This document shows positions 3,107 to 51,740 of a DNA stretch of 64,000 bases, in pieces. The translations under genes were made by a program, and so were the position numbers. The notes under the pieces are model-generated. The model did no database searches and was not told the DNA's origin. It saw only the letters and a program-made list of their open reading frames with translations. The DNA lies in NCBI GenBank assembly GCA_022826755.1, contig JAJDUG010000049.1, forward strand, positions 1-64,000. Direction: 5' to 3'. The stretch is from Acidobacteriota bacterium. GTDB taxonomy: Bacteria > Acidobacteriota > Terriglobia > Versatilivoradales > Versatilivoraceae. Position 1 is the first letter of the stretch; each line of letters opens with the position of its first letter.

Positions 3107-3130
3107 ACCGCTGTTTGGAGCCCCTACACA

Positions 3131-3308: not shown

Positions 3309-3317
3309 CATATCCAA

Positions 3318-3512
3318 GTGCCCCCGAAAATCCGCCAACTCATCCGAAGCCTTGAAACTGCCGGATTCCGGAATCGTGGTGGTAAGGGCAGTCATCGAAA
3401 CTATAGTCATCCCAAAGGTGTACGGATAACGATTAGTGGTTCATCGGGTTCGGACGCCAAGCCGTACCAGGAAAAGGCGGTGAAAGGAGCTATTGCCAAG
3501 GTGTGGGAATGA
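3318..3512 (+). CDS. hicA: HicA-family mRNA interferase toxin
   Basis: A 64-residue protein with the double-stranded RNA-binding-like fold of HicA (YcfA family). The motif GSHRNYSHP (about residues 24-32) contains the catalytic histidine, followed by the beta-strand VRITISG and the terminal helix KAVKGAIAKVWE. HicA cleaves mRNA during translation and is neutralised by HicB. The start is GTG 3318. It overlaps hicB by four bases (ATGA at 3509-3512), as expected for a translationally coupled pair. Length is normal, so it looks functional. Confidence 0.85.
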   Translation: MPPKIRQLIRSLETAGFRNRGGKGSHRNYSHPKGVRITISGSSGSDAKPYQEKAVKGAIAKVWE

Positions 3513-3847: not shown

Positions 3848-3877
3848 AGTCATTCACGAGGTGGCTACTGCCAGGAG

Positions 3878-3946
3878 ATGGGAAATGATGCGGTCAAGCA
3901 TCTAATTGAAACCGCCAAGCAGGACATCGTTAGCGCTTTAAAATAG
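3878..3946 (+). other. Possible 22-codon gene fragment
   Basis: A short frame begins MGNDAVKHLIETAKQDI and stops after 22 residues. It has an amphipathic helical look and is preceded by CAGGAG, but I recognise no family. It may be a remnant of cargo that came with hicAB, or chance. Confidence 0.2.
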
Positions 3947-4015
3947 TTCCGAAGACGATGGTCCACCCAACAGCAATCCCGCTGCAGGTCAACCAGAAGT
4001 CTCCCTCCCTTTCCC

Positions 4016-5743: not shown

Positions 5744-5747
5744 GCCG

Positions 5748-6764: not shown

Positions 6765-7577
6765 GGCCTGTTAACACTAAACAGTAAAACCATGCTATCC
6801 TTGACGGATGGAACTCACCGAAGCGCAGTACCAACGCATCGCCTCGGTCCTGCCAGTGCAGCGAGGCAACGTCAGCCTGTCGAACTTGCAGGTGCTCAAC
6901 GCCATTCTCTATATGGCCGAACACGGCTGCAAGTGGCGGGGATTGCCGCCTCGGTTCGGCAACTGGCATACCATCTATACCCGGATGAATCGCTGGTCGA
7001 AAAACGGGGTCCTGGACCGAGTCTTCGAACACCTGCAGCGGGAAAAGATCCTGCACATCAAGCTGGAGGTGTTATCGATCGACAGCACCGCAGTCAAGGT
7101 CCATCCCGATGGGACCGGCGCCTTAAAAAAAACGGCCCTCAGTCCATCGGCAAGTCCCGAGGGGGTTGGACCAGCAAAATTCATCTGGTTGCCTCGGATG
7201 CTGGAACGGCTCTAAGGGTGTCGCTGTCTCCCGGACAGGCTCACGACGCCCCGGAAGGCCGCAAGCTTCTCCAAGACCTGGGTCCTCAGCTCCAGACCCC
7301 GTTTCTGGTGATGGACCGTGCCTATCAAGACAACCAGACGCGGCAACTGGCCTCGGCATTGGGCTATACCCCGGTGGTCCCACCGCTACGGACCCGGGTG
7401 GACCCCTGGGAGTATGACCGCCAGATTTACAAGAGGCGCAACGAAGTCGAGCGTTTGTTCCGTCGGTTGAAGGGCTATCGCCGCATCTTCACTCGCTACG
7501 AGAAACTCGATGCCCTCTTCCTCGGATTTGTCTTGTTTGCCCTCATCTTCGAGGCGCTTCGCTAGGGTTAACAGGCC
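6765..7577 (+). mobile_element. Complete IS5-family insertion sequence
   Basis: The ends are inverted repeats: left GGCCTGTTAAC at 6765 and its reverse complement GTTAACAGGCC ending at 7577. Both are flanked by CTAG (6761-6764 and 7578-7581), which fits a 4-bp target duplication; because CTAG is itself palindromic, a 2-bp TA duplication with a longer repeat is equally possible. The element is about 813 bp and carries one transposase in two overlapping frames. The length and the frameshift point to the IS427/IS1031-like groups. It is intact and may be active. Confidence 0.85.
6808..7565 (+). CDS. IS5-family transposase, two frames joined by -1 frameshift
   Basis: Frame 1 (6808-7215) begins MELTEAQYQRIASVLP, contains the DUF4096-type helix-turn-helix domain (CKWRGLPPRFGNWHTIYTR) and the first catalytic aspartate in LSIDSTAVKVH. 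Frame 2, ending at 7565, contains GGWTSKIHLVASDAG, the second aspartate (LVMDRAYQDN) and the catalytic glutamate region (YKRRNEVERLFRRLKGYRRI). The frames meet at a run of eight A (7125-7132) in the phase TTA AAA AAA ACG, where a -1 slip yields a DDE transposase of about 252 residues. Frame 1 alone would stop at 7215. Confidence 0.85.
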
Positions 7578-7651
7578 CTAGTCTGGGACAGCTCCGTTGC
7601 GCTCCGAACGAACGGCCGCGTGTTATCGGACTGGGGCGGGGCCAGGTGAAT

Positions 7652-7805
7652 AGTGGAGAGTGGAGAGTGATTGAATCGATGCGTCAAGCGTCTTGTTGAT
7701 CTTGGCGCAGCCGTATAGGCCGGAAAAGGAGTGCGACCAAGCTCCAAGGCGCATGCGTGTTCCTGGAATCCTCCGCTGACCACTCTTCACTCTCCACTCT
7801 CCACT
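7652..7805. repeat. Inverted AGTGGAGAGTGGAGAGTG arms
   Basis: The purine-rich arm 7652-7669 is the reverse complement of the pyrimidine-rich arm 7781-7805, about 110 bp apart, in the gap between the insertion sequence and the potassium-channel gene. The arms could form a long stem. No gene is visible between them. Short repeats of this type are common in environmental genomes. Confidence 0.6.
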
Positions 7806-8838
7806 AACTAAAGGCCTCGAGTTTCCCCTGGGCCATTTCAGGAAGGTTTCGGAGCTGTTCCCGGGTTCCGAGAACGAACATCCTCAGACCGGCGGTCAAT
7901 CGGGTATCGGCGGAGGGGCTGGCGTCGATCCCGCCATCGGCCAGCTTGCAGGCCAGAACCGTGACGCCGAAGCGGGCGCGCCAGCGGCACTGCTCCAGGG
8001 TCTGGCCTACCAGGGGGGAGTCCGGCGAGAGTTTGAACTGCTCCATGTAGAGCTCGAGGCCGCTCTCGTAGACCACTTCATCCAGGAAGTTCGAGACTTC
8101 GGGCCGAATCAGCATGGTGACCATCCTGCGGCCGCTGAATCGATAGGGCAAGATCACCCGATTGGCGCCGGCTTTCACCAGCTTGCTTTCCGACTGCTCG
8201 TCTATCGCCCGGGCCACGATCAGGAGGTCCGACCTCACGCTGCGTGCGCTGAGCACGATGAACACGTTCTGGGCGTCGGAATCGGCAGCCACCAGCAGAC
8301 CGCGGGCTCGCTCGATTCCGGCTCGAGCCAAGAGTGCTTCGTTGGCCCCATCCCCCTGGAGCGCCAGGAACCCGGACTCGCCGACCCGGCTGATCTTCTC
8401 GGGCGAGGGATCGATCACCACGAAGGGGATACCCTGGGCAGCCAATTCGCCAGCCACGTGGCGGCCCACCCGGCCGTAGCCGCAGACGATGACGTGATCG
8501 CAGAGTTTGTCCAACATTCGGAGCAGGCGTCGTTGTTTCAGGTAGGCCCGTCCTTCGCCTGAGAGCAGAAAATCGGCCATGCCGCTCAGCAGGTACATGG
8601 CCAGCCAGCCGGCTCCCAGAATGAGCACGATGGTGAAGAGCTTGCCGCCCGGCGTCAGAGGCTTGACTTCGCCGAAGCCGACCGTGCTCAAGGTGATCAC
8701 GGCCATGTAAAGGGCATCCAATAGCTTCATGCCCTCCAGCAGCCAGAATCCCGTGGTGCCGAACAGCAGCAGGCCGGCCAGGGCAACCGCCGTTTTCCAG
8801 AAGCGCCGATGAGGGTGGGAGACAACCCGCCTTTGCAC
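7804..8838 (-). CDS. Two-TM potassium channel with RCK domain
   Basis: 344 residues. TM1 is about 14-32, the pore helix and filter STVGFGE lie at about 51-57, and TM2 about 66-86. TVGFG is the potassium selectivity filter. A cytosolic RCK (TrkA-N) Rossmann domain follows (HVIVCGYGRVGRHVAGEL, about 115-132, with the acidic ligand end VVID), then a TrkA-C domain (about 255-340). The architecture matches MthK-type channels gated by ions or nucleotides at the RCK ring. It reads toward the insertion sequence with no operon partner and is divergent from the copper ATPase. Stop TAG overlaps the repeat arm at 7804. Confidence 0.88.
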   Translation of the reverse strand: MQRRVVSHPHRRFWKTAVALAGLLLFGTTGFWLLEGMKLLDALYMAVITLSTVGFGEVKPLTPGGKLFTIVLILGAGWLAMYLLSGMADFLLSGEGRAYLKQRRLLRMLDKLCDHVIVCGYGRVGRHVAGELAAQGIPFVVIDPSPEKISRVGESGFLALQGDGANEALLARAGIERARGLLVAADSDAQNVFIVLSARSVRSDLLIVARAIDEQSESKLVKAGANRVILPYRFSGRRMVTMLIRPEVSNFLDEVVYESGLELYMEQFKLSPDSPLVGQTLEQCRWRARFGVTVLACKLADGGIDASPSADTRLTAGLRMFVLGTREQLRNLPEMAQGKLEAFS

Positions 8839-9245
8839 CAGGAACTCCTTAGATCGACCCGGCAGCTCTCGGGATCAGCCAACTCGACGGAACAATAGCA
8901 TAATTCCAGCCGATTCAATCAAGAGACCCGAGGCGGACGCGGAGGCGTTGCAGGGGACATGCAAGACCTGAGCGGGCGTGTAGAATAGCAAGCGAAGTAT
9001 TTGTGATTGTTGATTTCTGATTGTTGATTGGGAGGCAAGACCAATCGACTTTGCCGCAAATCAAGAATCTTCAATCAACAGAGCCTTTTGCAAATTTGGC
9101 CGGGGAGCGGGATTTATTGCCGGGAAGGCTCAACAATCCAAGATTCAGGAATCTTGACTCATCTTTCGACGTTGTTTCGATTTTTCAGCGCCGGAGAACC
9201 CATTTCAGCCCGCCACTCCCCCGAAGCCACCACGCGTGACAGGCC
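8839..9245. other. Divergent intergenic region
   Basis: About 400 bp between the divergent channel and copper-ATPase genes, so promoters for both should be here. The segment 9003-9079 contains TTGATTTCTGATTGTTGATTG and an imperfect reverse complement (AATCTTCAATCAACA), another short AT-rich repeat. No gene and no clear CueR-like or CsoR operator could be identified by eye. Confidence 0.5.
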
Positions 9246-11651
9246 ATGGACCCTCTCACATTGAACATCCTTCCGGACCCGGGCGAGCCGAGCGGCCATG
9301 TCCCTTCAGGTCCCAAGCCCGGCGCCGTGCGGGACCCGGTGTGCGGCATGTGGGTCGATCCGAAAACGGCCGCCGATTCGTGCGCCTTTGGCGAACAGAC
9401 CTATTACTTCTGCCGCACGCACTGCCGGACCCGATTCGAGGCCGATCCCGATCGTTTCCTGGGCAGCCCGGAGACCCCCGCGGCCCCGGACACCGGAAGT
9501 GGAACTCCGGAAGTGGAGGAACACCACCGGCAGCCGGGGAGCTACACCTGCCCCATGCACCCCGAGATCCTGACCGATCGACCCGGAGCCTGTCCGCTTT
9601 GCGGCATGGCCCTGGAACCCCGAGCGGTGAGCCTGGAGGAGCCCGACAATCCGGAGCTGTCCGACATGAGGGGCCGCTTCAGGATCAGCCTGGTTCTGAC
9701 GCTTCCCGTCTTCCTGCTGGCCATGTCGGAAATGATTGCCGGCGGTTCCCTGCTGCCGCACTGGCTGGCCGAGGTTTCGGCCTGGATTCAATGCCTGCTG
9801 GCAGCGCCGGTGGTTCTCTGGGGTGGATGGCCGCTGCTGCAGCGCGGGTGGGCCTCACTGGTCCACCTCAGCCCCAACATGTTTACCCTGATCGGATTGG
9901 GCACGGCCACCAGCTACCTCTACAGCCTGGCGGCCACCCTGGCTCCCTCCCTTTTCCCGGACGCCTTTAGAGGTCCTGGCGGGTCCGTTCCCGTTTACTT
10001 CGAAGCGGCAGCCGTCATCACCACCCTGGTGCTGCTGGGGCAGGTGCTGGAGCTTCGGGCCCGGCAGCGGACCGGCAGCGCCATCCGCTCGCTCCTGAAG
10101 CTGGCTCCCGAGACCGCGCGCCGGTTGCGCGAGGATGGAACCGAGGAGGAGATCTCCCTCGACCTCGTCCAGGTGGACGCCCGGTTGAGGGTTCGTCCCG
10201 GTGAGCGCATCCCGGTGGACGGAGTGGTCCTGGAGGGCGCCAGCTCGGTGGACGAATCCATGGTCACCGGCGAACCGCTTCCGGTCCAGAAGCTTCCCGC
10301 CGACCCGGTGACCGGGGGCACCATGAACCAGACCGGCAGTTTCCTCATGCGCGCCACCCGGGTGGGACAGGACACCTTTTTGGCCCGGATCGTCCAGATG
10401 GTGGCCGAAGCCCAGCGGACACGCGCGCCCATCCAGCGCTTTGCCGACGCGGTTTCCGCCCGCTTTGTCCCCGCGGTGCTCCTGGCCGCCCTGCTGACCT
10501 TTGCGGGCTGGAGTCTGCTGGGGCCACAGCCCGCCATGGCCTACGGCCTGGTCAATGCCGTGGCCGTGTTGATTATCGCCTGCCCCTGCGCCCTCGGTCT
10601 GGCCACGCCCATGTCGATCATGGTGGCGACCGGACGAGGAGCCGGCTGCGGCGTGCTGGTCAAGAATGCCGCGGCCCTGGAAGCCCTGGCCGGCGTGGAC
10701 ACCCTGGTGCTGGACAAGACGGGAACTCTCACCGAGGGCAAACCCCGGCTTCGGACACTGGTGGCCCTGCCGGGCTGGAGCGAAGAGGAGCTGTTGTCGG
10801 CGGTGGCCAGCCTGGAGCAGGCCAGCGAACACCCCCTGGCAGGAGCCATCCTGGAAGCGGCCGGGAGCCGCAACCTCGATCCGGCCCCCGTCCGGGAATT
10901 CCAGGCCGTTCCCGGGAGAGGGATTCGGGGAAGCGTGCGAGGACGGTCCCTGGTGGTGGGCAACGCAAGGATGCTGGAGGAGTTGGGGATCGAAACGGGG
11001 GCGCCCCATCACCGGAGGGACCATGTGAGCGAGTCGGGCCAGGCCGTGGTGCTGGTGGCCGCCGACGGCCGATTGGCCGGATGGCTGGGAGTGGAAGACC
11101 CCGTCAAGAGCTCCGCCAAGGAGGCCGTATACCGGCTGCAGCATGCGACCCGGCGCGTCCTGATGGTCACCGGGGACCACCGCAAATCGGCCGAAAGCGT
11201 AGCCTGCGAGTTGGGAATCGAACATGTCCGGGCAGAGGTGGATCCCCGGGAAAAGGCAATGATCGTCAAACGGCTGCAAGACGAAGGCAGTCGGGTGGCC
11301 ATGGCCGGCGACGGCATCAACGACGCCCCGGCGCTGGCCCAGGCGCAGGTGGGAATCGCCATGGGGAGCGGCACCGACGTGGCCATGGAGAGCGCCGGGA
11401 TCACCCTGGTGGGAGGAGACCTGGGAGGCCTGGTTCGCGCCTTCCGCCTGAGCCGCCGCACCATGCGCAACATTCGGCAGAACCTGTTTCTGGCGTTTGT
11501 CTACAACCTGCTGGGCATTCCGATTGCCGCCGGCCTCCTCTATCCGCTCTTCGGCCTCTTCCTGAACCCGATGATTGCCGCCGCCGCCATGACCTTCAGT
11601 TCCCTGTCGGTCATCGCCAACGCCCTGCGCCTCAGACGACTGCCACTGTGA
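9246..11651 (+). CDS. Copper-type P1B ATPase with YHS and CPMHP domains
   Basis: 801 residues. The N-terminus holds a YHS domain (about 28-75; [17 protein letters not shown]) then a heavy-metal-binding domain (YTCPMHPEI...CPLCGM, about 98-124) in place of the usual HMA domains. The core has the transport motif CPCALG (about 446-451), the phosphorylation site DKTGTLTEG (Asp about 490), the P1B HPLA histidine motif and the hinge [10 protein letters not shown]. The eight-helix topology ends with [16 protein letters not shown], the NxxxxxxxxMxxSS signature of Cu(I)-exporting CopA. It should pump Cu+ from the cytoplasm. No chaperone or regulator lies beside it. Confidence 0.92.
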
Positions 11652-11849
11652 GGCGCGGGACCAAACGGCCACGGACCGACGACTCCCCTTCCCGGCCCCA
11701 CAACACCGCGACAGGGGCACGGCCAATGGGCTTGGCTGAGAAGGGGCTTTGTGCAGGCCCTGATGGAGATGCCTTACGAGTGGTCCGCAATACCCTGAAC
11801 TTCTCGACTGCGCATCCGGCGCCCGCGTAGAACGTCGGGCCGGCGCCGG

Positions 11850-12995
11850 TTACGTTCGGCGGCGGGAGCCGAAGAAGCGCCGCCAGCTCATCGCGAGACC
11901 GGTCCAGACCATGACGGCGACGCCCAGGGACACGCCGCCGGCGATCGACTGGCCGACCACGCCGTACACTTCTCCGGTGTGCGCAAACCGCAACCAGCGA
12001 CGGATCTTGAAGCCGGGCGTGAAGGTCGGATAGCCGGACCGCTCCACCAGCTCGCCGGTTGCCCGGTCGAACAGCAGATCCTCGCTCTTCGACGGCTGGC
12101 GGCCGTTTCCGCGGTCGACCGCGACCACGACGGGGTGGTGAATCGACTCGGGAATATCAACGGTGAGCGTTCGCCAGCCGGGCGTCTCGATGCCGGCCTT
12201 CGTGGCCAGCATCTGCAGCTCGACCAACGGGGCCGCCGGCTCCAGCGCGACCGACGGATTGTCCCGCGCATCCGACTGCCGCTGCCGCGGCGACTGCTGA
12301 AACGGTGGCGTGTCGCCCGCCAGCCGATGGACGAGGTCGGCGGCCCACTGGTAGGAGATGGTGGCCCCGCTGAAAACGATGACGGCGAGCGGAATGGCCG
12401 ACCAGAATCCGATCACGGTATGCCAGTTGAAATCGCGCGACCGTCCCCTGAGCCGGCGGCGGAACCACAGCGCGTGTCTCCAAGCGGCGCGGCTTCGGAT
12501 CGATGGCCACCAGAGATAGACCCCGCTGAAGAGCAGGAACAGGAATCCGAGGTTGGCAACTGCAACGACCGTCCGACCGACAATCCTATACTCCCCCTCC
12601 AGGGCCAACCACCGGTGCCAGACCATGACGCTCCGGAGGAAGCGCCGCGTTCGCGTGTTGCCATCGCCCAGCCGCTCGCCGGTGAAGCGATCGACGAAGA
12701 CGGTGGCTCCGCCGTCGATCTCGACGACCGCCGGCTCCAGCGGGTCTCTGCGCAAGGCCACCGAAGTGACGACATCGGCGGACTGCCCGCCGGCGACCCG
12801 CGCGATCAACGCGTCGAGCCCGAGCGGTGCAACGCCCGGGCCCGGCGGATCGGCTCGATAGTCGCGGAGCGCCCACCGGTTCAACTGCGCCTCGTAGGCG
12901 AGGATCACGCCGGTCACCGCCAGCATGAGGATCACGACGGCGGCGGTGACGCCGACCGCCAGGTGGACCCAGAAGATTGCCTTGCGCAGGGACAT
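11850..12995 (-). CDS. PepSY-associated TM helix protein, probable ferric reductase
   Basis: 381 residues starting MSLRKAIFWVHLAVG; an in-frame upstream ATG (13136) would overlap the preceding gene and add non-family sequence. Four TM segments (about 10-35, 155-175, 200-220, 345-368) flank periplasmic PepSY-type regions. Histidines lie at membrane positions typical of haem ligands: WVHL, VWHRWL, NWHTVIG and FAHTGEVYG. The family (PiuB/FoxB-like) includes inner-membrane reductases that release iron from siderophores. It is downstream of and co-directional with the Tat lipoprotein behind a Fur-box match, supporting an iron role. No TonB receptor is in the window. Confidence 0.82.
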   Translation of the reverse strand: MSLRKAIFWVHLAVGVTAAVVILMLAVTGVILAYEAQLNRWALRDYRADPPGPGVAPLGLDALIARVAGGQSADVVTSVALRRDPLEPAVVEIDGGATVFVDRFTGERLGDGNTRTRRFLRSVMVWHRWLALEGEYRIVGRTVVAVANLGFLFLLFSGVYLWWPSIRSRAAWRHALWFRRRLRGRSRDFNWHTVIGFWSAIPLAVIVFSGATISYQWAADLVHRLAGDTPPFQQSPRQRQSDARDNPSVALEPAAPLVELQMLATKAGIETPGWRTLTVDIPESIHHPVVVAVDRGNGRQPSKSEDLLFDRATGELVERSGYPTFTPGFKIRRWLRFAHTGEVYGVVGQSIAGGVSLGVAVMVWTGLAMSWRRFFGSRRRT

Positions 12996-13142
12996 GTCCG
13001 GTCGAGTCTCGGGGCGAGGGCTCCGGCGCTGGTAACCTGTGGCGATACGCTCGGCGCCGAGAGCGGCGAGACACCTTGCGGGGAGAGGGCAAGGCAATGT
13101 GGGCTCAACGCAGGAGTTCGCGCCGTTGTCCGGCACAGATTC

Positions 13143-13397
13143 CTACTCCTGCTGGTCGGAATCGGTCGCCTGATCGGAGTCAGCCGGCGGCGCACCGGCA
13201 TCGCCTTCACCGTCGGAATCAGTTCCGCTGGCGCAGGCCGCGACCATGGCGGCAGCCGCCGCGATCGAGCCGGCCGCGACCGCCCGAGAGAGAAACGAGC
13301 GGCGATCGACCTGGACAGTGGTGATGTCCTCGTCCGTCAGTGCCGCCGGGGATCCGGGACGAGTCGCGCCGAGCTTGCCGTTCTCCGATCTGCTCAT
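13143..13397 (-). CDS. Small Tat-signal lipoprotein with DSD repeats
   Basis: 84 residues. A hydrophilic leader (1-30) precedes the twin-arginine motif DRRSFLSR (31-38), an alanine-rich h-region and a lipobox VAAC (52-55). The mature part is only 30 residues, acidic, and has DSD three times (60-62, 73-75, 79-81), ending DQQE. No catalytic fold fits, so it is a small exported, probably lipidated, peptide. It starts 25 bases from a Fur-box match and is followed by the PepSY gene on the same strand. Its role is unknown; a metal-binding peptide or an oxygenase substrate is conceivable. Base composition resembles its two neighbours rather than the flanks. Confidence 0.6.
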   Translation of the reverse strand: MSRSENGKLGATRPGSPAALTDEDITTVQVDRRSFLSRAVAAGSIAAAAAMVAACASGTDSDGEGDAGAPPADSDQATDSDQQE

Positions 13398-13421
13398 TAC
13401 CTTGCTCCTAAGACTGGAAAC

Positions 13422-13436
13422 TGAGAATGAGTCTCA
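13422..13436. promoter_or_regulatory. Fur-box-like palindrome
   Basis: TGAGAATGAGTCTCA is a near-perfect palindrome (TGAGA, five bases, TCTCA) that fits the Fur core TGAGAATNATTCTCA closely. It lies between divergent genes, 25 bases from the Tat lipoprotein start and about 80 from the JmjC start, so one site could repress both directions when iron is replete. Fur itself is not in the window; binding is inferred from sequence. Confidence 0.6.
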
Positions 13437-13518
13437 ATATGCTAATAACGCGATGCTAGTGATGTGTGCCCTGGCTGTCAAGCCGTGACCGACAGCCGTG
13501 ACCGGAGCCGCGGAACCA

Positions 13519-14775
13519 ATGAGTGACGACAACGGTGGCAACGCACGGAGCGCTCAAATGACTACGGACCGCACCCGGGCAGGACAGGCGATCGACCGCG
13601 GCTGGTACGCCTGGCTCATCGATCCGCTGTCGACCGTGGAGTTCGAAAACGACTACTACGAGCAGCGGCTTCTCCACATCCGGCGCAAGGCATCCGCGTA
13701 CTACGCCGGGCTCCTGTCGGTGAGCGATCTCGACATCGTGCTCGGCACTCACTCGGCCGGTCATCGAGACATCAAGCTGGTTCGGGATGACGGCGACGTC
13801 GCCTCCCGTGAGTACCTGAACGGCGCCGGCAGGGTGCGGCCTCTCGAGGTCGCGAGGCACTTCGACAACGGCTCGACCGTCATCTTCAACCAGCTCCACA
13901 CGCGCGTGCCGACGCTGGCGCGGTTGTGCGCCGCGCTCGGGAGTCGCTTCTCGTCGCGAGTCCAGGCCAACGTGTATCTCACGCCGCCCGACGCGCAGGG
14001 ATTCGCCCCGCACTGGGATGTCCACGATGTCTTCGTCTTGCAGATCAGCGGCGCCAAGCGCTGGTCGATCTACGACACCAAGGTGCGATTGCCGCTGTGC
14101 GGCCAGCGCTTCGAACCCGGCACGCCTCCGGGCGACCTTAGCGATGAGTTCGAACTCAGTCCGGGCAGCACCCTCTACCTTCCGCGCGGCCTCATGCACT
14201 CCGCCCGCTCGACGGGTCAGGCGTCCTTGCACATTACGCTCGGGCTCACGGCATTCACATGGGCGGCGTTCCTGGTCGAAAGCGTCAACGCGGCGGCGCT
14301 CGAGGAAGAATCGCTGCGCCGCAATCTCCCTCGCGAGTTCGCTCGCGAGGGATTCCCTGCGTCCGAGCGGGAGCGCCTGTTCAGCGAGAAGCTGGACTTG
14401 CTGCAATCACGGTTCGACCCCGAGGTCGTGTGGCGCCGCTTTACGGACGAGGTCCTGGCCACCGACGTACCGCTGTTCACCGACCTGCTTGGCCAGCGGC
14501 TCCGCCCGGATCGGCTGGCGCCGGGCTCGCGGGTAAGGCGCCGTGTCGGGTTGCTCACTGAAGTCGCGACGGACGGCGAGACCTGCGTCCTCCGGTTCTG
14601 TGGCCGGGAACTCAGGCTGCCGGCCGGCGCGTGGCCGGCGTTGCAGTTCGCCACCACGGCTGATGAGTTCCGCGTCCTGGACCTGCCCGACTGCCTGGAT
14701 GCCGAGGGCAAGCTGACCCTGGTGAAGAGACTCGTCAAAGAGGGGGTTCTCCAGCGCGCTGCCCAGGGGGGATGA
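13519..14775 (+). CDS. JmjC/cupin_4 Fe(II) 2-oxoglutarate oxygenase
   Basis: 418 residues from ATG 13519 (GTG 13498 is in frame upstream). The cupin_4 JmjC barrel has the facial triad HWD (about H165, D167) and the distal histidine in PRGLMHSARST (about H227). The C-terminal 90 residues look like the winged-helix part of the YcfD/RoxA and MINA53/NO66 protein hydroxylases. Enzymes of this family hydroxylate arginine or histidine on ribosomal proteins using O2 and 2-oxoglutarate. Its position opposite a Fur-box match, beside a Tat lipoprotein and a PepSY protein, makes an iron-linked substrate plausible. Frequent GCG/CGC codons set it apart from flanking genes. Confidence 0.82.
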   Translation: MSDDNGGNARSAQMTTDRTRAGQAIDRGWYAWLIDPLSTVEFENDYYEQRLLHIRRKASAYYAGLLSVSDLDIVLGTHSAGHRDIKLVRDDGDVASREYLNGAGRVRPLEVARHFDNGSTVIFNQLHTRVPTLARLCAALGSRFSSRVQANVYLTPPDAQGFAPHWDVHDVFVLQISGAKRWSIYDTKVRLPLCGQRFEPGTPPGDLSDEFELSPGSTLYLPRGLMHSARSTGQASLHITLGLTAFTWAAFLVESVNAAALEEESLRRNLPREFAREGFPASERERLFSEKLDLLQSRFDPEVVWRRFTDEVLATDVPLFTDLLGQRLRPDRLAPGSRVRRRVGLLTEVATDGETCVLRFCGRELRLPAGAWPALQFATTADEFRVLDLPDCLDAEGKLTLVKRLVKEGVLQRAAQGG

Positions 14776-14949
14776 CCTGTCCTCCAATGAGGCGCTGTCT
14801 TCCGGGACCGGGATTCGGATCTTTCCTCTCGCGTCGGCCGCGAACCGTTGCGCCTCTCTCCAATCAAGCGGTACAGTAGTGCCGAGTCCGGCTGGGGCGG
14901 GCTGCAGGGCAGGTTGCGGGCAGCCGTCCGAAAATCGGGAGGCGATGGA

Positions 14950-15744
14950 TTGAAGCTCACCGAAAGTCAAAGGCGCGGCAGGCGCGTTCTCCACATTCTG
15001 GGACTGTCGCTGCTGGCATTGACCATGACCTCCGCGGGGCCGACGGCCGGCGATCGGCATTCGCCTCGGGCGATCATCGACCGAGTGGACCAGGTGTTGC
15101 GAGGGGCTTCCAGTCGCGGCGTGGCTACCATGAGGGTGGTCACCCGGCACTGGGAACGGAGCCTGACCATGGAGGTCTGGTCCCTGGGCGCCGACTACTC
15201 CCTGGTCCGGGTCCTGGCTCCCGCCAAGGAAGCCGGCACCGGCACCCTGAAAGCCTCCAGGGATATCTGGAACTACCTGCCCAAGGTGGATCGCACCATC
15301 AAGATTCCCGCCTCCATGATGATGGGGTCCTGGATGGGGTCCCACTTCACCAACGATGACCTGGTCAAGGAAAGCCGCCTGGTCGAGGATTACGAAATAG
15401 AAACCTCCTTTGAAGGAGCTCGCGAAAATGTCAGGGTCTGGGAATTTGTCCTGACCCCGAAGCCGGAAGCCGCCGTGGTCTGGGGAAAGATCGAATACCG
15501 GGTCCGTCAACGGGACTTCATGCCTCTGCAGGCGCGCTATTTCGACGAAGAGGGCGAACTGGCGCGAACCCTCACCTTCAGTGACTTCCGTCGCATGGGA
15601 GACCGCCTGGTTCCGGCCCGCATGGACATGCAACCCCACGACAAACCCGGCGAGCGAACCAGCGTGAGCTACGCCGAGCTGCAGTTCGACCTGAATATCG
15701 ACAAGTCCTTCTTTTCCCTGCGAACCCTCCGGCGCGGGAGGTGA
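14950..15744 (+). CDS. LolA-like outer-membrane lipoprotein-sorting protein
   Basis: About 264 residues if translated from TTG 14950, which places a basic n-region (RRGRRVLH) before the h-region ILGLSLLALTMTSAG; an ATG at 14848 is in frame but leaves the signal internal. The body has the family pattern RVVTRHWERSLTMEVWS, KASRDIWNYLPKVDRTIKIP, MMMGSWMGSHFTNDDLV and a closing beta-strand region, as in the periplasmic proteins annotated outer membrane lipoprotein-sorting protein, with the half-barrel of LolA/LolB. It is first in an operon with two FtsX-type permeases and an ATPase, so it probably accepts the substrate they release. Six bases separate it from the next gene. Confidence 0.82.
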   Translation: MKLTESQRRGRRVLHILGLSLLALTMTSAGPTAGDRHSPRAIIDRVDQVLRGASSRGVATMRVVTRHWERSLTMEVWSLGADYSLVRVLAPAKEAGTGTLKASRDIWNYLPKVDRTIKIPASMMMGSWMGSHFTNDDLVKESRLVEDYEIETSFEGARENVRVWEFVLTPKPEAAVVWGKIEYRVRQRDFMPLQARYFDEEGELARTLTFSDFRRMGDRLVPARMDMQPHDKPGERTSVSYAELQFDLNIDKSFFSLRTLRRGR

Positions 15745-15750
15745 GCGGTC

Positions 15751-17010
15751 ATGGCTCTGCCTTGCTGGTGGCTGATCGGCTGGCGCAATCTCGGACGCAA
15801 CCCCAAACGCACCTTCATCACGGCCCTGGGACTGGCGGCCGGCTACTTCGCCGTCATCTTCATGGTCGGCTTCGCCGACGGACTCAAGGTGGAGATGATT
15901 GACAACGGCACCGGCCTGATGACGGGGCAAATACAGATCCACTCACCCCGCTACCGGCCGGACCGCAGCCTCTACGAGACTATCGGGGGCCGCGCCGGGG
16001 CCGACTTCGAAGCCGTAATCCGGACGGCGGTCCGAGACCCCGCCGTGGTCGCGGCTGCTCCCCGCGTCTACGGCGCGGGCCTGCTGAGCTCGGGACAATC
16101 CACCAGGGGCGGCATGCTGATGGGCATCGACCTCGATCGCGAGCCCGAGGTCAGCCGCCTCATCAATTCTCTATCGCAAGGGCGGACCCCCTCTCCGGCA
16201 GCCAACGAATTGATGATCGGGGCCGAGATGGCCCGCCGGCTGGAATTGCAGGTGGGCGATGAAGTCATCCTGGTGGCTCCCGCGGCAGACGGCTCCATGG
16301 GCAACGACATCTTCCGGGTATGCGGCCTCTACCGGACCGGCATGGCCGATCTGGACGGGGCCTTCGCCCTGATTCCGATCCGGTCGCTGCAGCGTTTGCT
16401 GGCGCTCGATCCGGAGAGGATCCACGAGATCGCCCTCTCCACCGCCGATCCCTGGCTGGCTCCGGAAGCCGGACGACGGCTGCTTGCCGGCCTGGCGCCG
16501 CTGGGGGTGGAACTGGAGGTGCTTGACTGGACCGGACTGCGGCCGGAAATGCTGGAATACGCCCTGTTGATGGATTCCTGGTATTCGATCGTGGTGCTCA
16601 TCGTCTTCTCCATAGCGCTTTTCGGCGTCGCCAATACCATGCTCATGTCCACTTACGAGCGACGGCGGGAGTTCTCGGTGATGCTGGCTCTGGGAGCCAG
16701 GCCCCACCAGGTACTGCTCACGGTGGTTTCGGAGGCGACCGCGCTGGGATGGATCAGCCTGGCCCTGGGCGTGGCCGTCACCTTCCCGCTCATTGCCTGG
16801 TGGCACCATTCCCCCATCGACCTGAGCTGGATCTACGGCGATCTCACCATGCTGGGAGCGCTGATACGTCCCGTGCTCAGGGTCGAATACAACCTTCCCG
16901 TGTCCGTGTGGACCGGCTTGGCGCTGCTGCTGACCGCGGTGACCGCCGGTCTCTACCCCGCAGCGCGAGCCGCATGGTTGCCGCCGGCGGACACACTCTC
17001 CGGCCAATGA
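15751..17010 (+). CDS. FtsX/LolC-like ABC permease (first)
   Basis: 419 residues with the FtsX/MacB topology: TM1 (about 22-42), a periplasmic domain of roughly 230 residues, then three TMs (about 278-300, 325-350, 385-405). The segment MLMSTYERRREFSVMLALGARPHQV just after TM2 is the conserved cytoplasmic loop that contacts the ATPase. The N-terminus LIGWRNLGRNPKRT is the usual amphipathic helix. Strong RBS GGGAGGTGA precedes ATG 15751. Its stop overlaps the start of the second permease (ATGA at 17007), so the two should be made in equal amounts and form a LolCE-like heterodimer. Confidence 0.88.
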   Translation: MALPCWWLIGWRNLGRNPKRTFITALGLAAGYFAVIFMVGFADGLKVEMIDNGTGLMTGQIQIHSPRYRPDRSLYETIGGRAGADFEAVIRTAVRDPAVVAAAPRVYGAGLLSSGQSTRGGMLMGIDLDREPEVSRLINSLSQGRTPSPAANELMIGAEMARRLELQVGDEVILVAPAADGSMGNDIFRVCGLYRTGMADLDGAFALIPIRSLQRLLALDPERIHEIALSTADPWLAPEAGRRLLAGLAPLGVELEVLDWTGLRPEMLEYALLMDSWYSIVVLIVFSIALFGVANTMLMSTYERRREFSVMLALGARPHQVLLTVVSEATALGWISLALGVAVTFPLIAWWHHSPIDLSWIYGDLTMLGALIRPVLRVEYNLPVSVWTGLALLLTAVTAGLYPAARAAWLPPADTLSGQ

Positions 17011-44581: not shown

Positions 44582-44845
44582 TCAGAGGAGATCCTGGGGC
44601 CTGGTAGCCGGGTCCGGGATATTCGGGAAATCCTCGTCCAAGGGCCTCAAACGGGACAAGACCTCGGCAAGCGACGGACGGTATTGGACGGGAACGACAA
44701 CCAGACGGTCGCCTTCCCTGCTTATCAATACTTCGTCCGCGCTGAGTTCAAACTCTCTCGGGATTCGAACAGCCTGGTCGCGGCCAATTCGAAACAGCCG
44801 TGCACGGCGAGCCGGACTTCGAATGTTCGGTTTTTCGTTCGGCAT
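44582..44845 (-). CDS. Orphan AbrB/VapB-type antitoxin
   Basis: 87 residues from ATG 44845; a longer frame to 44935 is not family-like. LFRIGRDQAVRIPREFELSADEVLISREGD is the SpoVT/AbrB swapped-hairpin of VapB and MazE antitoxins, which binds DNA at the operator. The C-terminal tail LSRLRPLDEDFPNIPD is the type that wraps a PIN toxin. No toxin gene follows: the gene stops 26 bases from the end of a convergent, unrelated gene. It is a solitary antitoxin, either functional as a regulator or a remnant of a lost vapBC pair. Confidence 0.75.
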   Translation of the reverse strand: MPNEKPNIRSPARRARLFRIGRDQAVRIPREFELSADEVLISREGDRLVVVPVQYRPSLAEVLSRLRPLDEDFPNIPDPATRPQDLL

Positions 44846-45207
44846 AAGATAATTCAAATACTGGGGAAATTGCTGCCGCCGCCTTCGCGGCTCTCTTGGA
44901 ACCCCGGGCTGGTACCCGGCAATCCAATAATTCAAATAATCCTGTCCCCCTGCAGTGTCGTCGGTTTGGGGAGAGCTACGAAGCTGCGGTTGAGGTGGTT
45001 ACCCAAGGAAACGTCCCCTGCAGGCTATCTCTATAGAGCAGCGTAGCTGCGGCTCAGGGTAGCCCCGGGCGGGAGCCCGGGGTCGTCTGATCCCGCACTG
45101 CCGTAGCCGCATACGCGGCGAATCAAGAGCCAGGTCCCGGACCGTAGTGCCTCTCCAAAACAACACCAGCCAGTCACGGCTTCTCAAGGGATCCCTGCTC
45201 TCGGCGC
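44846..45207. other. Intergenic region with GC hairpin
   Basis: About 360 bp without a recognisable gene. It contains the sequence CCCCGGGCGGGAGCCCGGGG (45063-45082), an 8-bp perfect stem with a 4-base loop, preceded by AGCAGCGTAGCTGCGGCT. This type of GC-rich palindrome is a common intergenic repeat in such genomes. There is no T-run, so a classical terminator is unlikely. Confidence 0.5.
45063..45082. repeat. GC-rich palindrome
   Basis: CCCCGGGC-GGGA-GCCCGGGG is a perfect 8-bp inverted repeat, flanked by GTAGC on one side. It lies about 125 bp past the stop of the minus-strand hydroxyacid dehydrogenase gene. Confidence 0.7.
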
Positions 45208-46301: not shown

Positions 46302-46562
46302 TCAGCTTTCATCGGCCAGAAGCGCTTCGAGCTCGGTTGCTGTCAAGCCCTTGCCGGACGCTTCTGCGCCCAGGGCATTCATGGTCACTGTCAGACGCTC
46401 CCAGGCAACGCCGAGAAGTCGTTCATAGTGTTGCATCGACATCATTACGCCGACCGAACAGCCTTTCTGGGTCACCCGCACAGGCGTGCTCTGCACGACA
46501 TCCAGCAATTCGCCGAAGCGGTTCCTGGCATCCATGGCGTTAATCTCTCTCATGAAGGCCAT
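46302..46562 (-). CDS. Orphan Phd/YefM-type antitoxin
   Basis: 86 residues. EINAMDARNRFGELLDVVQSTPVRVTQKGCSVGVMMSMQHYERL is the Phd/YefM N-terminal DNA-binding domain. The C-terminal part (AEASGKGLTATELEALLADES) is the toxin-binding helix. A second in-frame ATG at 46553 could be the true start. A RelE/Doc/PIN partner would be expected just downstream on the minus strand, but 46213-46301 is too short and holds none. It is therefore a solitary antitoxin or remnant. Confidence 0.8.
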   Translation of the reverse strand: MAFMREINAMDARNRFGELLDVVQSTPVRVTQKGCSVGVMMSMQHYERLLGVAWERLTVTMNALGAEASGKGLTATELEALLADES

Positions 46563-46606: not shown

Positions 46607-47887
46607 TCACACCGACCAGGGCTCTCGGTACTCCTTGGTCAGCAGCGCGTTGGCCTCGGGGTCATCGCGAACGGTTTCGGTTTCCGGGTCGAAGTGGAGC
46701 ACCCGCTGGGTCCGGTAGGCGACCTCGCCCAGGTGGCTGAGGGCGCAGGAGAGGTGGGCCAGTTCGATGGGAGCGTTGGGCTGCTTGCGCGAACGCACGC
46801 AGTCCAGGAAATTGGCGAAATGCTCTTCCTTGCCGATACCGCCCCGCATGCCCGGCCCCTTTTCCTCCTTCTTGCCCAGGTAGACCTGAAAGTAGCCGCG
46901 CCGGGAGAAGATCATGAAGCCCTCGGTGCCGTAGAAGGCGTTGCCGCTGTCGAAGCCGAAGCCTCCGTAAGGCGTCCAGCCGCGGTCCTCGTAGAGCAGC
47001 ACCTTGTCGTCCGGATACTGATAGGCCACCATCATGTTGTCGGGGTACTCCCGCACCCCTTTCAGATCGATGCGGCTGCCGTGGGCAGTAATCCTGATGG
47101 GAAGGCCCCTGGGGTTCAGCCCGAAGTGAGCCATGTCCAGGTCGTGGCTGCCGTCGTTCCCGATGTCGCCGTTGCCGTAGTCGCGGTACCACTGCCAGTA
47201 GCTGTGGAAACGATTGGGGTTGAAGGGCCGCTTGGGGGCCGGACCCAGCCACATGTCGTAGTCCACCCCCGGCGGGACCGGACCGTCCGGAACCGGAGTG
47301 CGATGCTTGTGGCGCTGCAGGTTCCAGGCCTTCGACATCTTGACTTCCCCGATCACCCCCGCCCGCAACAGCTCTCCCGCCCTGGCCGTCACCGGGCTTG
47401 ACCGCATCTGGGTGCCGTGCTGCACGATGCGGCCATGTTTCCTGGCGGTATCGGCCAGCACTCGCCCCTCCCGGAACACGTGGCTGGCCGGCTTCTCCAG
47501 GTAGAGGTCCTTGCCGGCCCGTAGCGCCCGCACGGCTATGGGAGCGTGCCAGTGGTGGGGTGTGGCGATCACCATGGCATCGATGGCGTCGTCATCCAGC
47601 AGAAGGCGAAAATCGCTCACCACCCGGGGCTTGCGCCCGGTGGCCTGCATGACGGTGGCGGCGGCGCGCTCTTGAAACTCCGCGTCCACGTCGCAGACCG
47701 CCAGGCAGTCCGTATCGGGACGCGCCAGGATACGCTTCAGATGACTGTTACCGATCCCCCGCAGTCCGATGACGGCCATCCCCAGCCGGTCGTTGGCGGA
47801 CCAGGCCCGACGGGCCGCCAACACCGGGGCCAGAGCGGCCGCGCGTGCCGACCGGGACAAGAAGGTCCTGCGGGTGAGAGTTGTCAC
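46607..47887 (-). CDS. Gfo/Idh/MocA oxidoreductase with Tat signal
   Basis: 426 residues from GTG 47887, chosen because GGAGG lies ten bases upstream and the start gives the Tat motif TRRTFLSRSARAAAL; an ATG at 48004 would run into the DUF4276 gene. The NAD-binding motif is AVIGLRGIGNSHL, the signature EKPASHVFREGR contains the catalytic lysine (EKP), and the substrate-domain motif DIGNDGSHDLDMAHFGL follows. These proteins fold with NAD(P) in the cytoplasm and are then exported. It is a close paralogue of the enzyme at 51774-53084. Confidence 0.88.
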   Translation of the reverse strand: MTTLTRRTFLSRSARAAALAPVLAARRAWSANDRLGMAVIGLRGIGNSHLKRILARPDTDCLAVCDVDAEFQERAAATVMQATGRKPRVVSDFRLLLDDDAIDAMVIATPHHWHAPIAVRALRAGKDLYLEKPASHVFREGRVLADTARKHGRIVQHGTQMRSSPVTARAGELLRAGVIGEVKMSKAWNLQRHKHRTPVPDGPVPPGVDYDMWLGPAPKRPFNPNRFHSYWQWYRDYGNGDIGNDGSHDLDMAHFGLNPRGLPIRITAHGSRIDLKGVREYPDNMMVAYQYPDDKVLLYEDRGWTPYGGFGFDSGNAFYGTEGFMIFSRRGYFQVYLGKKEEKGPGMRGGIGKEEHFANFLDCVRSRKQPNAPIELAHLSCALSHLGEVAYRTQRVLHFDPETETVRDDPEANALLTKEYREPWSV

Positions 47888-47940
47888 GACGATTTTTCCT
47901 CCAGCAAAAACCCGCAGCTTGCTGCAACGAGGGCGCCATC

Positions 47941-48567
47941 CTAGCAGCCGGCTGCCTGGGCCAGCGATAGTAGCTTGTCCATCATTGTTTTCAGATAGGG
48001 ACACTTCTCCCGTGCAACTGTAGGGTCCAATCGGGAGAACAGGTTCGATCCATCCACGATTTTCTTGTAGTCCCGCCTCAACTTTTCCCGGTAGAGCCGT
48101 TGGAGCATCTTTGACGGCGGGTTGTCGAAGTTGACACTCTCCGGATTTTGAACTCTGCCTGGGAGAGCCCTCCTCACCGTGGCCGGCAAATTCTCAGGCT
48201 GGCTCAAAATCCAAGCTTCGAACTCGTGGACTGCACAAAACATGTGGAACTTTGCGCAATCGACTTCGTTCTCGAAGTGCTGACACAACCAATCGTAGCG
48301 CTCTTGAACAGCGGAAACATGATTGGGGTAGTAGTTGACCCCATACAAGTCAAGGATTCCGACAACTGCGATGAGATCCGAATTTGACGGCCCGTTCAAG
48401 TGTCTGCGCACGGCCGATGCAAGTTTGTTTTTGAACTCGCCGCCCCCTTGGAACCGAATTACGTTGATGCCCACACGTTGCGTTGTTGCTGAATTCAGCC
48501 AACCGCCCAGAAAACGAGGAAGGGCTATCCGCTCAAGGTGGCCTTCAACAAAGACGACAAACCTCAT
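47941..48567 (-). CDS. DUF4276 (TOPRIM-like) partner of AAA ATPase
   Basis: 208 residues, DUF4276. The pattern FVVFVEGHLE (E8), then GILDLYGVNYYP (D73) and the motif HEFEAWIL (114-121) corresponds to the metal-binding acidic residues of OLD-type TOPRIM nucleases. The C-terminal YREKLRRDYKKIVDG is helical. ATG 48567 overlaps the stop of the upstream ATPase gene by four bases. Pairs of an AAA/OLD-type ATPase with a TOPRIM-like protein occur in several anti-phage systems (AbiL, PARIS and relatives), so I infer a defence nuclease triggered by its ATPase. Lower GC than the flanks suggests transfer. Confidence 0.75.
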   Translation of the reverse strand: MRFVVFVEGHLERIALPRFLGGWLNSATTQRVGINVIRFQGGGEFKNKLASAVRRHLNGPSNSDLIAVVGILDLYGVNYYPNHVSAVQERYDWLCQHFENEVDCAKFHMFCAVHEFEAWILSQPENLPATVRRALPGRVQNPESVNFDNPPSKMLQRLYREKLRRDYKKIVDGSNLFSRLDPTVAREKCPYLKTMMDKLLSLAQAAGC

Positions 48568-49760
48568 TTGATAGTCTCGAGATGGCCAGAGCGGTACATC
48601 TCGCCTAACGTGTACTCGTTCAACCAGTAGTCAAGTTCGTCGCCGGACAGGATAGAGAGGGCCGTGCAACCGTCGCCCCATCCAACGACGGTCGTGGTCG
48701 GTGCATGATCACCAAAGGCGTCGAGCAACGCCGGCGAGTGCGTCGTCAGAATGAGCTGGGTGCGCGATGCAGCTTGGGAGGCATATTCGGCAACGATAGG
48801 AAACATCGACGGATGCAGCCCCGTTTCAGGCTCGTCAATGGCTACCAGCGAAGGCGGATCGGGAGACGCCAGTACTGCAATCAAAAAGAGGAATCTCAAA
48901 GTTCCATCCGAGAGGTCCGCCGCCGATTGCTCCCGTCGTAGAGATTTCCATCGAACCCTTAATTGAACCCGCTGATCGGCTGCCGGTGGAAAAACGAGCT
49001 TTTCAAACTCGTGTCCGAAAGCCGCTTTCATGGCCGAGTCCACTTCCCGTTCGAAATCTCGATTACCGGAGTAGAGAGTGTGCAGGACCGGTACGAGATT
49101 CTGCCCGTTGGGCTCTACCTGCTGGGCCCATCGGGATACGGCTGCCTGCCGAATAGGCGCGTCCCGATTTGTATTAAGGTCCTGATAGATGCTCCATTCT
49201 GCGAGTCTGCTTCGATAGTTGGAAACGATTCTGTTGGCCGTGAATGGTCCCGCTGCTACAGACAAGAGGGTCTCATCCTCAGCGAAGGATTCATCGGGCG
49301 CCTCCAGGCGTTGATCCTGCTGGTCGTAGACCACGGCGCGCATGAGTTCGCGCTCAAGGAACTTGAATGGCTGTTGCTTTCGGCCAATTTCAACCAGATG
49401 AAATTTCCCCAGCAACTCCTGCTGAATTCGATAGGTACTTGTTCCTTTGAGGTGGGCAAGACTCAGTTCGTAGGTCAGGCGATCGGCAACCGGGTCGCGA
49501 TGCTGTTCGATCGGAGAAGTCTTCACCCTTACTGTAATTGCATCAGACCTTCCGTCCCAGACGAGTGGCTGCATGCCGCCCTCGCTTTGCACGTAGTCTC
49601 CAAGTTTGCCGCGAGCCGAATTAGCAATCATCTCAAGGATACGGAGGACATTTGACTTACCGCTGGCGTTGGGGCCGATGAGTATGTTCAAGTCTCCGGG
49701 TTCCCACTCCACATCGGAGAGTGATCTAAAACCCTGCACTTTAAGGTTTTCGATCTTCAT
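48564..49760 (-). CDS. AAA-type (OLD/AAA15-like) ATPase of a defence pair
   Basis: 398 residues. Walker A GPNASGKSN lies at 29-37, after the signature start IENLKVQGFRSLSDVEWEP. The ABC-type signature LSDGTLRFLFLIAVLASPDPP, Walker B LVAIDEPETGLHPSMFP and H-loop TTHSPALLDAF follow in order, with a C-terminal LGEMYRSGHLETIK. This is the SMC/RecF-like ATPase of the AAA15/OLD type. It is translated ahead of and overlaps the DUF4276 gene. No endonuclease motif is visible in this chain, so nuclease activity should sit in the partner. Triggers (phage proteins or DNA ends) are unknown. Confidence 0.85.
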   Translation of the reverse strand: MKIENLKVQGFRSLSDVEWEPGDLNILIGPNASGKSNVLRILEMIANSARGKLGDYVQSEGGMQPLVWDGRSDAITVRVKTSPIEQHRDPVADRLTYELSLAHLKGTSTYRIQQELLGKFHLVEIGRKQQPFKFLERELMRAVVYDQQDQRLEAPDESFAEDETLLSVAAGPFTANRIVSNYRSRLAEWSIYQDLNTNRDAPIRQAAVSRWAQQVEPNGQNLVPVLHTLYSGNRDFEREVDSAMKAAFGHEFEKLVFPPAADQRVQLRVRWKSLRREQSAADLSDGTLRFLFLIAVLASPDPPSLVAIDEPETGLHPSMFPIVAEYASQAASRTQLILTTHSPALLDAFGDHAPTTTVVGWGDGCTALSILSGDELDYWLNEYTLGEMYRSGHLETIK

Positions 49761-49896
49761 TTCTATCTCGCCACACTCGTAGCAAACTCATTGTAAAGCT
49801 GCCCATCGATGATGCCCCTTTCCAACGGGGAAAATCATAACAGGCAACCATTGCATATCCAAAGGTGACGGCCCTCACCGTCAAATAGCCAGCTAC

Positions 49897-50012
49897 TCAA
49901 TCCTCCGCTTCCTCCTTGCGAATCATGTCCTGCAAGGTTGATGCAGTTGATCTACATGGCCTCTACACGAGAACTGCTGGAGGGCGAAAATGGGTGGCCA
50001 GGGAGAGGAAGA
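49897..50012 (-). pseudogene. Decayed copy of the 3' end of the neighbouring isomerase gene
   Basis: This 116-bp segment aligns end to end with 50670-50785, the last 39 codons of the intact isomerase gene, at roughly four of five bases (by eye). In the isomerase frame it begins FLSLATHFRPP, then meets stops and a one-base gap. It is therefore a degenerate duplicate, in direct orientation, lying 657 bp away from the original. Confidence 0.85.
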
Positions 50013-50208
50013 GAGTGATTATCCTCGTAGTTCACAACGTAGGCGTCACCGTCTACAAACTCGAATACGATTCGCCAATTGCCACTCACTTGGATAGCCC
50101 ACCGTCCCACCTTGTCGCCTTTAAGCAGGTGTAGCCGCCAGCCCGGAATGTTCATATCCTTGATGCTGAAGGCGGTGTGACGGGCCTGCAAACGCTCCTC
50201 AATACAGT
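50013..50208 (-). pseudogene. HigB/RelE-type toxin fragment
   Basis: The frame includes IEERLQARHTAFSIKDMNIP, GWRLHLLKGDKVGRWAIQV and SGNWRIVFEFVDGDA, the C-terminal two-thirds of a HigB toxin (plasmid maintenance killer). The usual first 20-25 residues (FxxKxLxxF...) are missing: the frame upstream continues antisense-like text from inside the DUF2442 gene. At its 3' end family similarity runs to EDNH, then the frame reads straight into the isomerase remnant and stops at 49952. It is a broken toxin; no HigA gene follows. Confidence 0.75.
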
Positions 50209-50516
50209 CAGTTTTTCGTCTCCACGCCCGCAAGGGACCAGAGCTTGGCCATTTTCTGAAGTTCAGGGAGATGTTCAGGCCAGTCATGCAAAGTCGCCGG
50301 GTCCCAATCAGCCCCGTTCGGCCATACCAAGGTATGGACTTCAGGGTCAATTCGAACCTGACTGAACACTGAGGCGTCACGAAGTGGACCAAATAATTCG
50401 CCCTCTAGAAGAGCTTGGAAATCAATTACCCGGTCCGTTCCATCGTCGAAACAAACTCGAAGCGTGTAAGGCCCCTGTATTTCAAAAGAAATCACGCGAT
50501 AAATAGGATGGCTCAT
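50208..50516 (-). CDS. DUF2442 protein
   Basis: 102 residues from ATG 50516; the frame extends to 50618 but only this part is family-like. YRVISFEIQGPYTLRVCFDD, FQALLEGELFGPLRDASVFS and TLVWPNGADWDPATLHDW are the DUF2442 pattern. Such proteins commonly accompany RelE-like or DUF4160 toxin genes and are regarded as antitoxin-like. Here the gene is directly followed by a broken HigB frame. It may be an intact antitoxin left without its partner. Lower GC than the flanking isomerase gene. Confidence 0.78.
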   Translation of the reverse strand: MSHPIYRVISFEIQGPYTLRVCFDDGTDRVIDFQALLEGELFGPLRDASVFSQVRIDPEVHTLVWPNGADWDPATLHDWPEHLPELQKMAKLWSLAGVETKN

Positions 50517-50669
50517 GTCGATCTCATTTATCGAAGGGGGTCGATTTTCACTAGTACCTGACCCGATTGTAGCCGTTCCCAATCTGCCAATAATTCTTCC
50601 TGATGCAACTCTGCCCATGCCTCTATCCGGCGGTGGTTGGCACCTCCAGCTTGAGCTGCAGCAACGTCC

Positions 50670-51740
50670 TCACGCCTCCGCTTCCACCTTGCGGATCATT
50701 TCCTGCAGGTTGCGGTAGTTGATCTGCATGGCCTCTTTGCGGGAACCGCTGGGGGGGCGGAAGTGGGTGGCCAGGGAAAGGAAGACGTCGCAGCCGTGGT
50801 CTCGCATGCCGCGCAGAATGGTGAGGTAGTCCACGTCGCCGTCGCCCAGCGGCCGGTACTCGAACTTGAGCTTGCGGCCGTCGAGCACGTGCAGGTCCTT
50901 GAGGTGAAGCCCATGGAGATAGGGCCGGATGTTGCCGAAGCCGGCGGTGGCCACGTCCCACTCGCCGCAGTTCCAGCAGTCGGCCGGCCCCCACATCACC
51001 GTGAGGCGGCGGGAGCCCACCCGTTCCACCAGGCTGCGGAAATTGCCGGTGGTGTTGGTGTAGTTCCAGGGCATCATGGAGAGGGCCACGTCCACCTGGT
51101 AGCGCTCGGCCTCCTCCGCCACCAGGGTGAAGGCCTTTACCAGCTTCTCCATGTCCACCTCGGCGATGACGCCACCCCGGGTGAGCCAGCGCATGGGCCA
51201 GGTGGGCTTGCCGCTGGAGTACTCGCCCGGCCAGGCGAAGGTGAAGGCGCCCACGGCGCCCACGCCGATGCGGGAGGCGATCTGCATGGAGCGAACCAGG
51301 TGCTTGAAGTCCTTTTTGAACCCCTGGTGATCCGACATGGTCTTGAGATCCAGGTCGGTCAGGTGAACGTGCTTGAAGGGATTGCCGGCGTTGAGCAGAA
51401 AGATCTCGAGGCCGTGCCGCTCCACCCGCTGGGCCATGCGGTCGGCGGCCGCGTCGCTCATTTCAGCCACGGGGGTCTCGTTGAGCAGGCGGTTGAACCA
51501 AACGTAGTCCACGCCGACCTCCTTGGCCTGGGCCATCTCCTCGTCAAAGGGCAGCCTCAACTCCGGGGTGTACATGGCCAGGCGGAAGCGATGCCCGGTT
51601 TTGGTTTTTCCAGGCGATACGGTGGGCCCACCCGGTGCCGCGCCGGCCCGAGCCCGGCCGGCTCCCGCGGTCATTAGAGCGCCGGCGGCCACTCCCAGGC
51701 CGGCGCGCTCGATGGTGGTCAGGAATTCTCGTCGTTTCAT
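50670..51740 (-). CDS. Exported xylose isomerase-like TIM barrel protein
   Basis: 356 residues. A Tat-type signal (KRREFLTTIERAGLGVAAGALMTAGAGRA) precedes an AP-endonuclease-2-like barrel: RLAMYTPELRLPFDEEMAQ, GVDYVWFNRLL, SMMPWNYTNTTGNFRSLV, RLTVMWGPADCWNCGEWD, HLKDLHVL, YRPLGDGDVDYLTIL. Metal-binding glutamate, aspartate and histidine positions are in place, so it should be an active isomerase or epimerase. The last 39 codons are duplicated as a remnant at 49897-50012. It lies 33 bases downstream of the Gfo/Idh gene, with which it is probably co-transcribed. Confidence 0.85.
   Translation of the reverse strand: MKRREFLTTIERAGLGVAAGALMTAGAGRARAGAAPGGPTVSPGKTKTGHRFRLAMYTPELRLPFDEEMAQAKEVGVDYVWFNRLLNETPVAEMSDAAADRMAQRVERHGLEIFLLNAGNPFKHVHLTDLDLKTMSDHQGFKKDFKHLVRSMQIASRIGVGAVGAFTFAWPGEYSSGKPTWPMRWLTRGGVIAEVDMEKLVKAFTLVAEEAERYQVDVALSMMPWNYTNTTGNFRSLVERVGSRRLTVMWGPADCWNCGEWDVATAGFGNIRPYLHGLHLKDLHVLDGRKLKFEYRPLGDGDVDYLTILRGMRDHGCDVFLSLATHFRPPSGSRKEAMQINYRNLQEMIRKVEAEA

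Follow-up and report, generated by a model that had tools for sequence, protein, structure and literature searches.

The adjacent genes at 47941–49760 of the window, the 64,000-nucleotide stretch of an Acidobacteriota contig analysed here, probably constitute a two-gene anti-phage system organised like a split OLD or PARIS, with a sensor ATPase partnered by a DUF4276 TOPRIM nuclease. The first gene (48564–49760, minus strand) encodes a 398-aa ABC ATPase of the SMC/Rad50-like kind (AAA_21/AAA_15), designated HEC-01A-like from its ORF, Pfam and PADLOC matches, AlphaFold2 model and structural neighbours. The second (47941–48567, minus strand) encodes a 208-aa DUF4276 protein, HEC-01B-like and a predicted TOPRIM nuclease on the basis of its ORF, Pfam and PADLOC matches, AlphaFold2 model, fold matches and conservation. 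As stated in the original prediction, the ORFs overlap by four bases, sharing an ATGA stop/start at 48564–48567 (minus strand). This arrangement is consistent with translational coupling, and overlap or near-contiguity of the two genes recurs among relatives.

The two genes are inherited together. Among ATPase relatives collected across GTDB, which span many phyla, the DUF4276 gene directly follows the ATPase gene at 65 of the 77 non-truncated loci, and the ATPase is present at 32 of 33 DUF4276 loci. Pairwise distances within the two protein families correlate (Spearman rho 0.61, with 0 of 999 permutations as high). Two more ATPase–DUF4276 pairs lie on other contigs of the same genome (L001 on G000:C51 and L002/L164 on G000:C8), and a type I methyltransferase gene adjoins one of them (L164). 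The pair is carried by 5 of the 19 viral contigs that the ATPase search retrieved; no DUF4276 homologue was found in phage records, and a single-protein scan of a genome-contig collection found no relative. An apparent natural ATPase–DUF4276 fusion (L141) was rejected, its junction being the usual end of the ATPase read out of frame after a deletion, and the long frames (~600 aa) around some DUF4276 matches are apparently the ATPase region in another frame of GC-rich DNA. At a Desulfotignum locus (L085, 60–5801), proteins of 1108 and 803 aa without a Pfam match are encoded upstream of the pair, and together with it they may form an undescribed defence operon.

The window ATPase matches Pfam AAA_21 at 6.2e-35 (122.1 bits versus a cut-off of 27) and contains Walker A (GPNASGKS), signature (LSDGTLR), Walker B (LVAIDEPE) and switch (TTHS) motifs, in agreement with the GPNASGKSN, LSDGTLR and TTHSPALLD strings originally picked out. 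Its AlphaFold2 model (pLDDT 89.2) has SMC heads, Rad50 heads and PtuA as best structural neighbours. As modelled, the protein belongs to the SMC/Rad50-head-like ABC ATPases and lacks a nuclease domain.

The partner matches Pfam DUF4276 at 2.6e-26 (93.5 bits versus a cut-off of 30.2), and the motifs first noted in it are present as EG (8–9), DLYG (73–76) and HEFEAW (114–119). The family is unmentioned in the literature searched, and no solved structure was detectable by sequence. Comparison with OLD at the profile level gave faint signals: the Pfam OLD-like_TOPRIM model scores 19.2 bits, below its gathering score of 23.2, and hhalign of the DUF4276 profile against OLD proteins reached a probability of 13.7, the alignment being confined to the surroundings of the VEGxTE motif. 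The AlphaFold2 model (pLDDT 95.5) supports the suggestion that the protein is TOPRIM-like, as it is predicted to fold like the TOPRIM region of OLD nucleases. Each of the top five Foldseek matches (E 1.4e-4 to 1.9e-3, four of them at E ≤ 0.001) is the C-terminal region of an OLD protein; BFVD yielded no fold match at E ≤ 0.001. With VIA-align, the best alignment was to Burkholderia pseudomallei (Bp) OLD (Z 9.2, 4.2 Å over 167 residues, 1–204 on 393–594), followed by Xanthomonas campestris OLD (Z 8.9), archaeal PH0156 (8.8), PARIS AriB (8.0) and Gabija GajA (7.2). The margin is modest, with the best rows at Z 8–9 and unrelated rows at about 7, and the active-site pattern therefore matters.

In Bp OLD, metal A is bound by E400, D455 and D457 and metal B by E404, T506 and E508, with K562 as the lysine; the enzyme tolerated single substitutions of its metal ligands (PMC6755086). 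Judged by order, spacing and alignment range, DUF4276 residues E8, E12, D73, E117 and K169 parallel E400, E404, D455, E508 and K562: the distances from the first glutamate are 4/65/109/161 in DUF4276 and 4/55/108/162 in Bp OLD, and in the aligned range E8 falls roughly on E400 and K169 close to K562. In 36 diverse relatives from multiple phyla these residues are invariant or almost invariant where the position is present (E8 in 35/35, E12 in 30/35, D73 in 36/36, E117 in 36/36 and K169 in 35/35), and E143 is a further invariant residue. The OLD DxD is replaced by D73-L74-Y75, position 75 being Tyr in 25 and Glu in 6 of the 36; since the second Asp is Tyr75 here, catalysis may differ from that of OLD.

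It had been asked whether this exact combination is catalogued. A PADLOC profile search answered that it is, as HEC-01 (Hma-embedded candidate 1; PADLOC-DB 2.0). The window ATPase matches the HEC-01A model PDLC04177 (E 1.1e-62, residues 3–394 on 5–388 of 393), the DUF4276 protein matches the HEC-01B model PDLC04188 (E 1.3e-18, residues 2–203 on 14–227 of 230), and gene order and adjacency are the same. By these sequence matches the window pair is a divergent member of HEC-01, an assignment made on E-values, coverage and adjacency and not on PADLOC's own numerical thresholds, and the combination of ATPase and DUF4276 is not new. The window copy differs in not being Hma-embedded and in its membership of a divergent clade; the models fit the two paralogous pairs of the same genome far better. 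Two PADLOC labels look swapped: in L002 (239–2088), PDLC04144 (HEC-01B) matches the ATPase and PDLC04143 (HEC-01A) the DUF4276 protein. HECs are candidates found within Hma systems, and several HECs, such as HEC-06, have shown antiviral activity (PMC12988326). HEC-01 is named in a report on Desulfovibrio piger (PMC12724379).

The tests applied here place the pair outside PARIS, AbiL and canonical OLD. PARIS (AriA–AriB, called class 4 OLD) likewise consists of two genes for an ABC ATPase and a TOPRIM effector. However, DUF4276 resembles AriB in fold only, without an AriB (PADLOC, E ≤ 1) or DUF4435 sequence match, and the window ATPase fits HEC-01A much better than AriA. AbiL has been grouped with other ABC ATPase plus TOPRIM systems (PMC12409363); the window ATPase matches AbiLi at 6e-21, whereas DUF4276 has no AbiLii match at E ≤ 1. 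The likeness to the OLD family, an ABC ATPase and a TOPRIM domain with two-metal-site residues, lies in predicted folds and residues only, and the polypeptides are arranged differently, OLD classes 1–3 being single proteins where the window has two ORFs. Class 2 OLD and Gabija GajA share the ATPase and the TOPRIM-helical nuclease, OLD being the best fold match for DUF4276, but the window system differs from them in having two genes, no helicase partner seen and DxY for DxD. A point against the nuclease model is that in YbjD the TOPRIM domain is dispensable for the phage phenotype (PMC13261556).

The genomic company of relatives argues for a role in defence. In the nearest named relative (L074, 59% identity, from a Planctomycetota MAG), the pair is built into a BREX type 2 operon (65–16550) with the order PglW–PglX–[ATPase–DUF4276]–PglY/BrxC–PglZ–BrxD, the rest of the operon being intact-looking. 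Other relatives sit beside type I or type III restriction genes or DrmD, and a distant relative on an Aeromonas plasmid belongs to a Hma-like operon (WYL–SNF2–ATPase–DUF4276–methyltransferase). In a class-matched count, the genes beside the pair were slightly richer in defence genes than control stretches; the control is small and the PADLOC tallies are of families, not distinct genes, so we claim a moderate defence association and no more. The wider set of relatives, which is not taxon-matched to the controls, has clearly more defence genes (BREX, DrmD, type I, type III). The window pair is itself a solitary islet outside any larger defence operon, as are most copies, which again makes the defence-island enrichment only moderate. 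The original reading of the pair as defence genes is thus borne out as far as relatives do occupy recognised defence operons, so that an association with defence loci is present, though the enrichment is only moderate. Around the close relative L165, an apparent E1/JAB ubiquitin-type defence operon was rejected, since its ThiS–ThiF–rhodanese, JAB, PLP enzyme (PALP family) and PriA genes are probably housekeeping.

The islet in the window has the composition and neighbours first ascribed to it. GC content falls to 0.51–0.57 over ~48.0–50.75 kb, against ~0.65 in the surroundings, and what had been called toxin–antitoxin debris comprises a HigB-like ORF lacking the start of its domain and a DUF2442 gene. 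The HigB-like remnant (49952–50392, minus strand) matches positions 29–91 of the 91-position Pfam profile, so that its N-terminus, the first ~28 domain residues, is missing. The DUF2442 gene (50208–50618, minus strand) was identified by a profile match, and both ORFs lie outside the pair. The flanking genes encode an isomerase-like protein (50670–51740) and a Gfo/Idh/MocA oxidoreductase (46607–48004). A diverged duplicate of the 3′ part of the isomerase gene (49887–50012, minus strand; 126 bp, ~81% identical to the original at 50660–50785), into which the HigB-like ORF extends, flanks the DUF2442/HigB insert as an insertion-site scar, and recombination with a related gene is a possible route of insertion. 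MazE-like (44582–44935) and Phd/YefM-like (46302–46562) antitoxin genes, apparently orphan, occupy nearby intergenic gaps.

Comparison of this site between loci of the same genus (L233, L234, L235, L236) showed that its content varies. The two flanking genes are almost contiguous, with the site empty, in two genomes; in genome G006 the site holds 67-aa and 103-aa ORFs that by appearance are an antitoxin–toxin-like pair; in genome G003 it holds a HigB homologue of 105 aa and, next after it, a likely HigA of 97 aa; and in the window (48004–50670) it holds DUF2442, the HigB remnant and the ATPase–DUF4276 pair. The alternation of an empty site, toxin–antitoxin-like modules and the pair identifies a small insertion hotspot between two sugar-metabolism genes. 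The same pattern, with the HigB remnant and DUF2442 in the islet itself, favours the strongest rival to a defence system, namely a selfish toxin–antitoxin module in which the ATPase would act as antitoxin to a toxic DUF4276 nuclease, the module persisting mainly through addiction or element stabilisation, with any phage effect secondary. The similar pair PARIS also carries such wording (PDB 8v45, 'AriA antitoxin'), and AAA_21 was named by Pfam after AbiEii toxin–antitoxin systems. The relatives within BREX, restriction and DISARM-like operons nevertheless fit defence better than simple addiction, and we regard this alternative as rather unlikely; addiction and sensor-triggered defence are in any case compatible.

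The distribution of the pair bears on a second alternative, a housekeeping role in DNA repair or recombination with a RecF/Rad50-like ATPase and a processing nuclease. Such a role would suit an ATPase whose fold is nearest to SMC/Rad50 heads, and not all OLD-family proteins are defensive, Cran1 being a cell-cycle factor (PMC12796447). Against it, DUF4276 is patchy, occurring in 62 of the 299 genomes of the class, the pair is missing at this site from sister genomes, and it resides in a low-GC islet. In addition, the window ATPase belongs to a fully supported clade (100/100) of nine rows from Planctomycetota, Myxococcota, Armatimonadota, Pseudomonadota, Acidobacteriota and Thermodesulfobacteriota, a distribution indicative of horizontal transfer, and a housekeeping role is very improbable. 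That the pair is a decaying remnant whose function is lost, as the truncated neighbouring HigB and the partial duplication at the locus might suggest, is hardly credible given two full-length ORFs that align end to end with relatives and retain intact Walker and candidate catalytic residues.

Under the preferred reading, a two-gene anti-phage system, the ATPase would most likely both sense infection and restrain its partner, DUF4276 being the nuclease, by analogy with PARIS, in which an AriA hexamer sequesters AriB and phage proteins trigger AriB release (PMC12409363). The ATPase would assemble as a sensor that keeps DUF4276 inactive, and an infection cue would cause it to release or activate its partner. 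DUF4276 would then cut nucleic acid at a TOPRIM two-metal site, with E8 and D73 as candidate ligands of metal A, E12 and E117 of metal B, and K169 as the putative catalytic lysine. Its substrate could be tRNA, the target of AriB, or DNA, the target of OLD, and cleavage would prevent phage growth, with a probable cost to the cell.

It is also conceivable, though we advance it tentatively and consider it doubtful, that these pairs represent a second, separately evolved split OLD beside PARIS, with a modified site (DxY plus the invariant E143). They would then be a portable nuclease module that either joins a BREX, restriction, DISARM-like or Hma-like system or occupies a small insertion site by itself, and that might be set off when a phage anti-restriction protein inhibits the host system. 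PARIS fires upon Ocr, a phage anti-restriction protein. The repeated embedding in BREX and restriction loci suggests a back-up role, in which the pair would guard those systems. For DUF4276, an unnamed family, the proposal of an OLD-type candidate site down to individual residues opens a widespread candidate system to direct test.
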